A DNA stretch of 64,000 bases, from assembly GCA_017430835.1 (NCBI GenBank), contig JAFRMD010000082.1, positions 21,571 to 85,570 of the forward strand. The letters are read 5' to 3'. Both the position numbers and the translations under genes were made by a program. Origin of the DNA: Methanosphaera sp. Its GTDB lineage: Archaea; Methanobacteriota; Methanobacteria; Methanobacteriales; Methanobacteriaceae. The notes below the pieces were generated by a model. It saw only the letters and a list, made by a program, of their open reading frames with translations. It did no database searches and was not told the origin of the DNA. Positions 54,664-61,463 of the stretch are shown piece after piece (position 1 is the first letter of the stretch; every line of letters starts with the position of its first letter).

Positions 54664-55590
54664 TTATTTATAGTAATAACAACTTACGTTTTTAAAGTGT
54701 AACTTAGCAACTTTATCTAAAATTTCATAATCAATATATTTAGGCTTTGTTTTTCTAAGGTTAATATTATATTTTTCTTCAATCTCTTTTAAGCTTTTTT
54801 CAAAATGGTACTTTGCAATGATACTGCTGGTAGCAACGGGTGTAAAACGTTCACCATTTGATTCCTGTATAACTTTTATCCTATCATTCAAATCAAGGTA
54901 GGAATCCATTTTTTTCTTGTCGAATTTATCAATTACTATCAGGATATCATTGGAATCAATTTTTTCTACAAGATTGTTAATTGCTTTACTATGCAGATAA
55001 GCTAGAAGATGATTAAGATTTTTTCCTTCATTCCTAAATTTTTTATAAAGCTTATTGTAACTGAAAGGTTTTAAAACTAGTGTTTCATGAGATATTCCTA
55101 ATTCTTCTATCTTTTCGTATAGTTTCAATATTTGTTTTCTGTTTAATTTTTTACTGTCAGTTACGCCAATTTCTCTAAGTTTGATATTTTCGCTATGTGA
55201 TGTAGATACGGCAGTGACAACAAGAGGTCCATACCACTCACCTTTACCAGTTTCATCAGAGCCAACAGTAAAATCATAGTAATTGATAATACTCTTATTA
55301 TTTTGACTGTATCTTTTATTATTTTTATACTGGTTCTTCTTCCCATAATGTTTATTTTTCTTATGAAACTTTCGAGAAGAATTCGATTTATTTTTGATAA
55401 ATTTATTTAAATATTCTAATGTTTCATGATTATCATTATAAACAAGCTTTTTAGTAGTGTATAATATGAAAACAATCTTTCCATCCTTAATACGAACAAG
55501 TTCATACTGGTGTGGTGTTTCATGTTTCAAATTCTTTGTAACTTCTTTAAATTTTTCAATTTGTGAATTTGTTAATTCAATGGATTTCAT
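54664..55590 (-). CDS. rnhC: Ribonuclease HIII-like protein
   Basis: This 308-aa type 2 RNase H would cut RNA in RNA-DNA hybrids. The N-terminal part (residues 1-85), ending in a basic stretch, corresponds to the TBP-like substrate-binding domain of RNase HIII (HETPHQYELVRIKDGKIVFILYTTKK). The catalytic domain follows: YDFTVGSDETGKGEWYGPLVVTAV (Asp-Glu pair), TDSKKLNRKQIL, ILIVIDKFDKKKMDSY, and the late ATSSIIAKYHFEKSLKEIE. Most archaea use only RNase HII, so the HIII form here may come from a bacterium. It sits 14 bases before argC, among arginine genes. Confidence 0.85.
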   Translation of the reverse strand: MKSIELTNSQIEKFKEVTKNLKHETPHQYELVRIKDGKIVFILYTTKKLVYNDNHETLEYLNKFIKNKSNSSRKFHKKNKHYGKKNQYKNNKRYSQNNKSIINYYDFTVGSDETGKGEWYGPLVVTAVSTSHSENIKLREIGVTDSKKLNRKQILKLYEKIEELGISHETLVLKPFSYNKLYKKFRNEGKNLNHLLAYLHSKAINNLVEKIDSNDILIVIDKFDKKKMDSYLDLNDRIKVIQESNGERFTPVATSSIIAKYHFEKSLKEIEEKYNINLRKTKPKYIDYEILDKVAKLHFKNVSCYYYK

Positions 55591-57966: not shown

Positions 57967-58350
57967 TTATGTGTTATTTTTATAAGTGTTTTCTGTAGTA
58001 TATCTGTTACCTTCAGAACTTCCTTCATTTGAACCAGAACTACTTGAACCACTACCGGAATAACCAGATGAACTACTGCTTTTGTATTTGTTATAAGAAT
58101 TTCCGGATGAACCGCTTGAGTAACTGTTCTTATAATTGTTTGAGTAACTGCTACTTTGCTGGTAACTGTTACTACTTGATGAGGTAGGTAACTTGCTCGT
58201 GTCATTGGTAAGGTTTAATGAACTGTTATCATACCGGTACTCTTCTGGGAGGTCTATTTGAATAAAAGCAGATGCAATTGAGCCACAAATAAGTGCTACT
58301 ACTGCAACCACTAATACTATTAATATTCTTGATTTTAATTCACCTTTAAT
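57967..58350 (-). CDS. Secreted Ser/Tyr/Gly-rich protein, apparent ATT start
   Basis: This protein of about 127 aa has a signal peptide followed by a low-complexity region of Ser, Asn, Tyr and Gly (SSYSNNYKNSYSSGSSG). The first conventional in-frame start is GTG at 58311, which would give VAVVALICGS with no basic residue before the hydrophobic stretch. A perfect GGAGG at 58358-58362 is followed by seven bases and ATT (58348-58350), yielding M-KGELKSRILIVLVVAVVALICGS, a proper basic-hydrophobic signal sequence. The function is unknown; the composition suggests an extracellular or wall-associated role. It follows the GGDD-domain gene, its stop being 18 bases away. Confidence 0.68.
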   Translation of the reverse strand: MKGELKSRILIVLVVAVVALICGSIASAFIQIDLPEEYRYDNSSLNLTNDTSKLPTSSSSNSYQQSSSYSNNYKNSYSSGSSGNSYNKYKSSSSSGYSGSGSSSSGSNEGSSEGNRYTTENTYKNNT

Positions 58351-58368
58351 ATTAATACCTCCATATCA

Positions 58369-59580
58369 TTAACTGATTAATACTGCTACTATTAATGCAA
58401 TAATCATCGCTATAAATCCTAACCAAACGTTTCCTGTATTGCTACCAATAATGGTAAGGGCAAATACAAATATGAAAACAAGTGCTAAGGTTAGTTTTCT
58501 GTTTTGAATGTAATCTAGTGCAGATCGTGTAAATTCGGATGGTATGTAATATGAGTATATACCATTAGCTAGTTCAAATACTATGACTGGAGTGTCTTCA
58601 TTTATTTTAAGATTGTCTGATAGGTGTGCGTTTTCTCCAGCTTCTCTTCTACTTCTTCCTATTCCTATTCTTAGGTTTAATCCTTTATTCATTGCATACC
58701 AAGCACAGTCTAATCCTGTTTTTAGTGCAATTTCTTTGTTTGGGAAATTGATTATTAAATCGTCTCCGCCAACACGGTATCCTTCAATTTTTCCTTCACT
58801 TTCATTTTCTATGTAAGTGTTAATGTCATTCATTATTTCAATCAGGTTATCTTTACCATATTTAGAAATAAATCCTGTGGAATCCTTTGCATCAATGTAC
58901 ATGAAGTTATCAATAGTTTTTGCAGGAAGGTCTACTTTTTCTATTGTAGGTGTGGTTTCGAATATTATTCCATATTCTCCTCCAAGTTTTGTAAATCCTA
59001 CACCAGATGTTGGGCCTATTTCGTTGTTCATTTCTATTGCTCTTTCAATAGATGCTGCACCTGTCATACCTACTGATGCTCTAACGTTACAACCTTGACT
59101 CATACCCATTGAAATCATTCTTATTGCAAGTCTGATTCCATCCTTTTTTGAGGGCATTTGTGAAACAAGTTCTGTGTTACCTTTTTCAACAATTTTTCCA
59201 TTGGCTTCTTCCACCATCTGAGCAAATGTTTCCATAATCGGGGATGGTTGGAATAATTCAATGTATAAGTAACGGTCATTACCCATAATAATGTTACTAA
59301 GAAGAGCATATTCATTGATGCTGTCCTCAGCCTTTTTGATTTCAATAAATTTTCTATTCTGTGGTAAGTCACGTGGGTCTAATTCTTGTTCAAGGTTATC
59401 AAATATTGTTTTACTATTTATTGTAGCAGGTTTGATTTCTACAAGCATAGTTTTGGTAACGTTAATAAGTGAAACGTATTCTGTTTCTAAATCATTTGTT
59501 GCAAAGTATTTGGTTCCTATGCTGACAACTCGGTGGCCTAATAAACGACTAAATAATCCTGTCATTATATTTAAAGCCAT
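58369..59580 (-). CDS. Membrane-anchored GGDD palm-domain protein (GTP-cyclohydrolase-III/GGDEF-like)
   Basis: This 403-aa protein is mainly soluble with two C-terminal membrane helices (about 363-379 and 385-402). Residues 226-322 resemble the palm domain of archaeal GTP cyclohydrolase III and nucleotide cyclases: a metal-binding strand FMYIDAKDSTGFISKYGKD, the hairpin YRVGGDDLIINFP (GGDD at 271-274), and LRIGIGRSRREAGENAHLSD. Residues 145-210 (GIRLAIRMISMGMSQGCNVRASVGMTG) may be a second such domain. It could bind GTP or make a nucleotide signal; that is inference. The start is ATG at 59580, ten bases after GGAGG that also encodes the end of the upstream NYN gene. Confidence 0.7.
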   Translation of the reverse strand: MALNIMTGLFSRLLGHRVVSIGTKYFATNDLETEYVSLINVTKTMLVEIKPATINSKTIFDNLEQELDPRDLPQNRKFIEIKKAEDSINEYALLSNIIMGNDRYLYIELFQPSPIMETFAQMVEEANGKIVEKGNTELVSQMPSKKDGIRLAIRMISMGMSQGCNVRASVGMTGAASIERAIEMNNEIGPTSGVGFTKLGGEYGIIFETTPTIEKVDLPAKTIDNFMYIDAKDSTGFISKYGKDNLIEIMNDINTYIENESEGKIEGYRVGGDDLIINFPNKEIALKTGLDCAWYAMNKGLNLRIGIGRSRREAGENAHLSDNLKINEDTPVIVFELANGIYSYYIPSEFTRSALDYIQNRKLTLALVFIFVFALTIIGSNTGNVWLGFIAMIIALIVAVLIS

Positions 59581-59581
59581 T

Positions 59582-60622
59582 TTATCGTTTACCTCCACGT
59601 TCTACGGAAACTTCAAATTGTCCTGGTTTTTCCATTAACATACTAGGTTTCACTGATACTATTGGGAATTTCCATGTTCCAAGTCTTGCAGCCATTGTAC
59701 TTGCAATATTTCTGGAGTTATGTTTTATGAATGAGTAATCAGTGTCGTTGATTATTATGTTTAGGTTGTATGGGGATTCTTCTAGTACTTCATCAGAGTA
59801 TATGATACTTAATTCAAATGTTCCTGGTCTTGTAAACAAGTCATTACGTACTGCAACAAGTGGGGAATGGTCAAGATTTAACTTGTTTCGTACAGTAACT
59901 GCTATTGTTCCCGCATTTTTTACTGCTTCTTTGTAATCTTTTGGATTAACAAGTACAAATATTAGGAAGTCTGAGTCTTCAATATCGTCATCTACAAAAC
60001 TAACCATTTTGTTAAGTAGTGGAACTTTCATGAAGAAACTTTCTAATTTTGAATCAATAGCATTTTCGTCCTCGTTACTTACTCTGTTAATAGCTTCCTG
60101 TGCAACTGCTAAACCAGAGAATTTTCGATTTTTCTTTGACTTGTATACGTCAAATCCTCTTGTTTCGAATTCATTTAATGATTTAGAACAGATTTTTTGC
60201 AATAAGTTTTTAACTTTTTTAGGTGGTGCCGGTTTACCTATTTGGAAACGACCATTTTTTACTCGGTAAGGTAGCCTTCTGCTGTTAATATCCTGGAATT
60301 CATCCTGATAGTCTCTGAAGAAATCATTAGATAATATTTTTGCATCTTTTTCATATGCAAGATTTAGGATGTAATGGTCCGCTATTGTACCGGCAGGTAC
60401 TGGGAAGACTTCTTCGTTTTGTATCATTTCATTAAAGCCATCTTTATCATCAATTTCATGTCTTAATGGTGCATCAGATAGTACTATTGGTTCGTGTCCT
60501 AACTTTTTAAGAGTATCTATGGCCACTTTTAATGTTTTTAAACTTGGTGTAACCTTTCCTGTTTCTTCATCGGCTTGTTGTCCGTAATAGGCTACATTTG
60601 ATCCATCAACAATAATTTTCAA
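59582..60622 (-). CDS. NYN-domain (Zc3h12a-like) ribonuclease
   Basis: This protein of about 346 aa has an N-terminal PIN-like NYN nuclease domain: KIIVDGSNVAYYGQQ (Asp 6), PAGTIADHYILNLAYEKDAKILSNDFFRDYQ (Asp 82, 100 and 104). The last segment is the exact pattern of the Zc3h12a/MCPIP1 RNase family. The middle is basic (PPKKVKNLLQKICSK). The C-terminal 160 aa form an unknown domain with VNPKDYKEAVKNAGTIAVTVRNK. The frame begins at an ATG (60640), but GGTGAT inside it sits 7 bases before TTG at 60622, giving MKIIVDGSN, the family start. One base separates it from the GGDD gene, so they are coupled. Confidence 0.82.
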   Translation of the reverse strand: MKIIVDGSNVAYYGQQADEETGKVTPSLKTLKVAIDTLKKLGHEPIVLSDAPLRHEIDDKDGFNEMIQNEEVFPVPAGTIADHYILNLAYEKDAKILSNDFFRDYQDEFQDINSRRLPYRVKNGRFQIGKPAPPKKVKNLLQKICSKSLNEFETRGFDVYKSKKNRKFSGLAVAQEAINRVSNEDENAIDSKLESFFMKVPLLNKMVSFVDDDIEDSDFLIFVLVNPKDYKEAVKNAGTIAVTVRNKLNLDHSPLVAVRNDLFTRPGTFELSIIYSDEVLEESPYNLNIIINDTDYSFIKHNSRNIASTMAARLGTWKFPIVSVKPSMLMEKPGQFEVSVERGGKR

Positions 60623-60731: not shown

Positions 60732-61463
60732 TTATGGTGGTGTAAGTTCTTTTTTAGTACCATCATAATTATTTAAAGTAATAGTCACATCATCTTCTTT
60801 GATTTCAATAATGTTAAAAGAAGGATGGGTATTTCCACGAAGCTTCATACTACTAACGGTGCCTGCTGTAACAAATATGGTGTTTTTCATTTTCCACACA
60901 TGTGGAACATGTTTATGTCCAGACAATACAAGGTTAACATCATTTTCAAGTAAGGTTAACAGTATGTCACCAGCGTCACTAAGAACGTTGCGTTCACGAC
61001 CAGTATTTGGAACTGAAATGATGTGATGGTGAAATGTAATGATTATAAAGTAACCTTTATCTTCAGCATCTTCAATTTCTTTTTCCATGAAGCGTTTCTG
61101 TAATCTACCAATCTTTCCATGTCCAAGGTCAGGTTCACTACTATCTAAACCAATGATTTTTATTTTTTCATTATCTAAATCAATGGAACTGTAACGTTTT
61201 CCAATCAAGTCTTCAAAAACATCATTTCCCGTATTACGTGCATCATGATTGCCCGGAACAACAATGGTCGGGGGAATGATTAAATCAAGATATTCCTTAG
61301 CCTTAACATACTCTCTGTAATAGCCTTGATTAGTCAAATCACCAGATATAACAACTGCTGCAGGTTTTAGCTTATTAATCTTTTCGATAGTGCTTAATAA
61401 AATATCTTCCTTAAACTGAAGATAACCCACATGCAAATCTGACATATGGACAATGACAGTCAT
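60732..61463 (-). CDS. Metallophosphoesterase
   Basis: This 243-aa calcineurin-like phosphoesterase has the full metal set: MSDLHVG (DxH, residues 8-14), VVISGDLTNQG (GD), IVVPGNHDA (GNHD), ITFHHHIISV (His), and LVLSGHKHVPHVW (GHxH). Relatives hydrolyse phosphodiesters including cyclic nucleotides. The substrate is not known, but its position just upstream of the NYN/GGDD pair is suggestive. One base separates its ATG from the stop of the NAC gene, indicating coupling with that gene. Confidence 0.9.
   Translation of the reverse strand: MTVIVHMSDLHVGYLQFKEDILLSTIEKINKLKPAAVVISGDLTNQGYYREYVKAKEYLDLIIPPTIVVPGNHDARNTGNDVFEDLIGKRYSSIDLDNEKIKIIGLDSSEPDLGHGKIGRLQKRFMEKEIEDAEDKGYFIIITFHHHIISVPNTGRERNVLSDAGDILLTLLENDVNLVLSGHKHVPHVWKMKNTIFVTAGTVSSMKLRGNTHPSFNIIEIKEDDVTITLNNYDGTKKELTPP

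Follow-up and report, generated by a model that had tools for sequence, protein, structure and literature searches.

The window analyzed here comprises 64,000 nt of contig JAFRMD010000082.1 (Methanosphaera sp.), and all positions below are those of the window. An open reading frame (ORF) list and family scan place four genes on its minus strand in the order NAC, metallophosphoesterase, NYN protein and palm protein. The last two form the subject of this analysis: a protein that joins a Zc3h12a-type NYN ribonuclease (RNase) domain, predicted to be active, to a duplicated C-terminal domain, and a protein with two palm domains and a membrane tail that is a candidate nucleotide cyclase. The nearest loci in named genomes are those of Methanosphaera, at an identity of 80% and below. 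The features of the gene pair are as follows:

59582..60622, minus strand: NYN protein, 346 amino acids (aa) from TTG 60622 or 352 aa from ATG 60640; Zc3h12a-type RNase domain plus duplicated C-terminal domain
60218..60622, minus strand: NYN/PIN RNase domain, residues 7-141 in ATG numbering (PF11977); not found in Methanopyri
59585..60217, minus strand: C-terminal (partner) domain of the NYN protein, residues 142-352; the part in common with Methanopyri
59591..59596, minus strand: GGAGGT, Shine-Dalgarno-like sequence of the palm gene, read from the DNA and lying within the end of the NYN gene
58369..59580, minus strand: palm protein, 403 aa, ATG start, putative nucleotide cyclase (ORF, AlphaFold2 model, profile match, fold match)
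59284..59532, minus strand: N-terminal domain of the palm protein, unnamed, residues 17-99 (model, alignment; no Pfam family)
58945..59283, minus strand: palm 1, degenerate, residues 100-212 (model, duplication, conservation); without the metal-ligand pattern in Methanopyri
58531..58926, minus strand: palm 2, catalytic-looking, residues 219-350; intact D230, GGDD, K282, GxG and E316
58759..58770, minus strand: GGDD motif, residues 271-274, identical in 87/87 aligned sequences
58375..58497, minus strand: C-terminal membrane segment(s), residues 362-402 (DSSP helices 362-382 and 386-402; hydropathy)

A Shine-Dalgarno-like GGTGATC precedes the TTG at 60622, so the NYN protein most likely starts there and not at ATG 60640, in agreement with the preliminary description of this locus. 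The ATG of the palm gene (59580) lies one base past the NYN stop codon, as also described, and the palm gene is probably translationally coupled to the NYN gene.

Structure prediction and fold comparison gave a palm fold for the palm protein (AlphaFold2 model, pLDDT 82.5, pTM 0.72), which contains the YIDAKDSTG, GGDD and IGIGR motifs named in the preliminary description. The alignment used here holds 82 Methanobacteria-type sequences (window included) and five from Methanopyri. In palm 2, D230, S234, G271, G272, D273, D274, K282 and G308 are identical in all 87 and E316 in 86/87; the metal-binding acidic residues are thus kept in the homologues, D230 and D273 without exception. The suspected second palm-like region is real: palm 1 matches palm 2 in hhalign at E 5e-14 (one comparison), with a score of 80.8, where 20 shuffles reached 15.7 at most. 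Palm 1 has an invariant set of its own (K145, G171, T173, E179, R180, K198 and E202, 87/87), as does the N-terminal domain (G22, T23 and N40, 87/87). At the palm 1 positions facing the metal ligands, Methanobacteria carry E108 in 80/82 and E137 in 82/82 sequences; the Methanopyri sequences have T or R at position 108 (0/5 acidic) and E at position 137 in 3/5. We read palm 2 as the catalytic palm and palm 1 as a helper palm, an assignment drawn from residue conservation that the geometry of the model does not confirm. The proposed membrane anchoring is supported by two C-terminal hydrophobic segments (363-381 and 385-403), and at least one such segment occurs in the last quarter of the protein in 87/87 sequences.

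The NYN protein belongs to the Zc3h12a type, with PF11977 matched at E 2.1e-22 (80 bits, cut-off 23). The four aspartates named in the preliminary description (D6, D82, D100 and D104 counted from TTG) are present and correspond to D12, D88, D106 and D110 counted from ATG. The aspartates at positions 12, 88 and 106 are each kept in 78 of 79 aligned sequences; position 110 has D in 66, E in 12 and K in 1. The acidic RNase active site is thus conserved in Methanobacteria, and RNase activity is predicted. Unlike the Regnase/ZC3H12 NYN-PIN RNases (PF11977), the protein is fused to an unnamed duplicated C-terminal domain, and the zinc finger carried by ZC3H12 proteins is not seen in it. This partner domain consists of two copies of a beta-alpha-beta-beta unit (residues about 222-284 and 286-350) and carries invariant RND and RxIAST motifs.

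Genomic neighborhood analysis of 80 loci, kept from 91 relatives in species-representative genomes, reveals that the pair is conserved: the palm gene has the NYN gene ahead of it in 78/80, and in the remaining two it starts 77 and 177 bases from the contig end. Spacing between the two genes is -11 to +1 bases in 65/78 loci. One locus filed under Bipolaricaulota (L050) is probably a mis-binned contig, because its gene order and spacing match those of the Methanobacteriaceae locus L037. Within the phylum, the palm protein is found in 147/151 whole genomes (E <= 0.01) with one match each, except for G118, where it lies in two adjacent pieces; in G028 and G034 it is partial only, and G010, G061 and G085 have a second match at E <= 1. 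Outside the phylum, among 395 relatives of a reference genome that we take to be Methanothermus-type, only five genomes give strong matches (E about 1e-25), and there are nine weak matches besides. These five are all the Methanopyri genomes examined, and their protein records name Methanopyrus. Across the pseudomurein-building groups, almost every archaeon examined keeps the two genes together.

In Methanopyri, the partner has a different composition. In all five genomes, the palm gene is immediately preceded by a gene whose match to the NYN protein is confined to the stretch from residue 123 or 139 to about residue 350, and PF11977 is above cut-off in 0/5 of these genomes, compared with 20/20 Methanobacteriota genomes examined. 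The partner proteins are 232-238 aa in the records, and the frames in two genomes are 241 aa; three other frames of 319-320 aa run antisense into a neighbor gene, and this extension is not taken as coding. A divergent gene, aspartokinase-like at its start, begins 29-72 bases before the matched frames, and the gap between partner and palm gene is 0-30 bases. The partner domain occurs in 26/394 relatives of a Methanopyrus-type genome, namely the five Methanopyri and 21 Methanobacteriota. The coupling of palm protein and NYN nuclease initially proposed holds for the gene pairing but not for the nuclease itself: the duplicated C-terminal domain, not the RNase, is the invariant partner of the palm protein. 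The NYN domain may have been a gain of Methanobacteria or a loss of Methanopyri.

Strong conservation of the parts outside the catalytic site (N-terminal domain, palm 1 and partner domain) would suit a sensor rather than an enzyme, in which the palm protein binds a nucleoside triphosphate and metal and gates its partner by contact. Degenerate palms acting as sensors are known, and the tight coupling of the two genes fits a complex. However, two distant classes share both metal aspartates, the other GGDD residues and K282 without exception and E316 in almost every sequence, which exceeds what a simple binding site needs; such a sensor is a rather doubtful reading.

The palm fold is homologous to the class III cyclase domain, and D230 and D273 (87/87) align with the aspartates of the cyclase motifs FTDIVGST and AGDG. 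The best explanation is that the palm protein is a membrane-anchored nucleotide cyclase of the class III/palm superfamily whose translation is coupled to that of a dedicated partner domain; the cyclase activity is putative, and we give this explanation as a whole an even chance. Within it, there is good support for the fold, the metal site and the pairing, and the predicted enzymatic activity could go either way. The protein differs from class III cyclases such as Mycobacterium Rv1900c and Ma1120 in having tandem palms in one chain, the first of them degenerate, an unnamed N-terminal domain, a C-terminal membrane tail and no Pfam match.

Several observations weigh against this explanation. The profile match to class III adenylyl cyclases was made without a reversed-sequence control, and the substrate-selecting and transition-state residues of class III cyclases (Lys/Asp and Asn/Arg) are not placed by the alignment. 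The geometry of the model does not support a composite active site: the relative arrangement of its two palms superposes neither on the AC9 domain pair (root-mean-square deviation, rmsd, 17.5-18.4 A) nor on GTP cyclohydrolase III (GCH III; rmsd 16.3-16.9 A). A PDB search with five single palm-protein sequences gave no cyclase match, and none of the Pfam cyclase, GGDEF and GCH III families is found among 27 palm-protein members; the 16 families that any of these members matched at E up to 10 do not include GGDEF. One of four further palm proteins scores 13.5 bits with NCBIfam mCpol, whose cut-off is 40, and the window protein does not match it. The palm family is thus distant from all characterized cyclases. 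Finally, 13/78 loci have 99-387 bases between the NYN and palm genes.

The tandem palm duplication and the GGD(N/D) motif are shared with GCH III (MJ0145, PF05165), and GCH III (2qv6) is the second-best Foldseek match over 277 alignment columns (E 2.3e-4). The palm protein could on this basis be a GCH III-like enzyme whose tandem palms, likewise an internal duplication, open GTP or another purine nucleotide at the membrane, and it might replace a GCH III missing from Methanopyri, where the GCH III and GCH II families are each found in 0/5 genomes at E <= 0.01. At the profile level, however, no relation is seen: the match to archaeal GCH III put forward in the preliminary description does no better than shuffled columns (score 19.1 against a shuffled maximum of 20.6), and a shallow-alignment run likewise gave no relation. 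PF05165 matches 0/27 members at E up to 10. The signature residues of both GCH III palms (QIDNYGPWTVTP, RFDN, FFIGGDN and others), invariant in 22 aligned Methanobacteriota GCH III sequences, are absent from the palm-protein alignment, and a separate canonical GCH III coexists in 58/60 related Methanobacteriota genomes. A GCH III-like activity is very unlikely.

A separate observation concerns cofactor synthesis in Methanopyri. F420 and flavin synthesis need a GTP cyclohydrolase-type step, and neither PF05165 nor PF00925 (GCH II) was found in 5/5 genomes (G181, G159, G201, G221 and G241) at E <= 0.01, which leaves a missing-enzyme gap in this class.

The GGDD motif also invites comparison with mCpol (Panoptes OptS), Cas10 and GGDEF palms. 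A synthase of this kind would make a cyclic di- or oligonucleotide with the NYN RNase as its effector, as in defense systems. In contrast to patchily distributed defense genes, the palm protein, which misses the mCpol cut-off, is near-universal and syntenic within one clade; Methanopyri lack the NYN domain, and the sequence profile prefers class III cyclases. The NYN protein has no PADLOC match, and of its 26 pattern matches on viral contigs none was confirmed as a relative (the palm protein was not searched there). A defense-type synthase is very unlikely.

Under the cyclase explanation, palm 2 would bind two metal ions through D230 and D273, with D274 adjoining, and use a nucleoside triphosphate as substrate at the membrane face; a guanine nucleotide, as first proposed, is one candidate substrate or ligand. 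Palm 1, a degenerate duplicate retaining T173, E179/R180, K198 and E202, probably completes or regulates the active site. The output would work through the partner domain as a conserved effector or adaptor, and in Methanobacteria, where this domain carries a Regnase-type RNase, it would probably be altered RNA cleavage near the membrane. That the palm product controls the RNase is speculative and on balance unlikely.

Beyond the pair, two neighbors recur upstream:

61836-61465, minus strand: NAC
60732..61463, minus strand: metallophosphoesterase (PF00149, E 2e-17); a frequent neighbor, not an obligatory part

The metallophosphoesterase is present just upstream as first described, but it is not a fixed part of the unit elsewhere: among 60 loci whose sequence reaches over 2.5 kb past the NYN gene on its upstream side, 50 have it beside the pair, and of 15 Methanosphaera-like genomes, 4 carry it on a different contig and 5 yielded none. 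Anti-phage phosphoesterase models match it as well, with scores far short of the cut-off. NAC, a ribosome-linked factor, neighbors the pair in 55/60 loci. This neighbor and the conserved RNase active site of Methanobacteria would be compatible with an RNA-metabolism complex in which the membrane palm protein only anchors the NYN nuclease, as a degradosome-like scaffold, and nucleotide binding is a by-product. Such a role agrees with Lupo et al. 2025 (PMC11915815), who place their cluster D in nucleic acid metabolism or signaling. The unit nevertheless persists without the NYN domain in 5/5 Methanopyri, and the palm metal site is conserved more strictly than anchoring needs, making a pure scaffold unlikely. 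Downstream, directly after the palm gene, lies a Ser/Tyr-rich protein of 114 residues with a hydrophobic start and no Pfam family (57967-58311, minus strand), with a relative at the equivalent place in 3/80 loci (L001, L002 and L009). Further along, between argB and argC, is a ribonuclease HIII-like gene (54664-55590, minus strand; TIGR00716, E 2.3e-36, below cut-off), with a relative beside arg genes in 10/80 loci (L001, L002 and L004-L011), all Methanosphaera-like; many other loci end before that point.

Lupo et al. 2025 (PMC11915815) compared ten proteomes and listed candidates tied to pseudomurein archaea. Their cluster D contains OG0001213 ('Zc3h12a-like ribonuclease NYN domain') and OG0001214 ('Nucleotide cyclase', more than one membrane segment), both among 49 retained groups found in all five pseudomurein archaea compared, and clusters C, D and E are judged probably not part of pseudomurein synthesis. 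Matched by description alone, OG0001213 and OG0001214 appear to be the gene pair analyzed here. The passages on cluster D list the groups without analysis of architecture, active site or partner domain and do not mention the absence of NYN from Methanopyri. The earlier statement that no system of this composition had been described thus needs qualifying: the pair was known as a list entry, with no characterization in those passages. A literature search found nothing further on the pair beyond PMC11915815 and no functional study of it. As to nucleotide signals, PMC8646023 (2021) cites cyclic AMP (cAMP) in Methanothermobacter and states that, of the adenylate cyclases predicted in archaea, very few belong to class III. 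A bolder and improbable extension would be a second-messenger system specific to pseudomurein-walled archaea, in which the product of the tandem-palm cyclase, perhaps the cAMP reported in Methanothermobacter, is received by the partner domain as ancestral receptor, and the RNase acquired in Methanobacteria provides nucleotide-gated RNA decay at the membrane.

Nucleotide signaling in archaea is poorly mapped. The pair is common to both pseudomurein-building groups and was set aside by the sole survey found to mention it, at least in its passages on cluster D. A membrane-bound cyclase candidate that occurs almost universally as a single copy and keeps its metal site intact would make both the source and the role of such a nucleotide testable in culturable methanogens. 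Since one of the two classes lacks the RNase domain while the unnamed duplicated domain is the invariant partner, the interaction to test first is the one between the palm protein and this duplicated domain.
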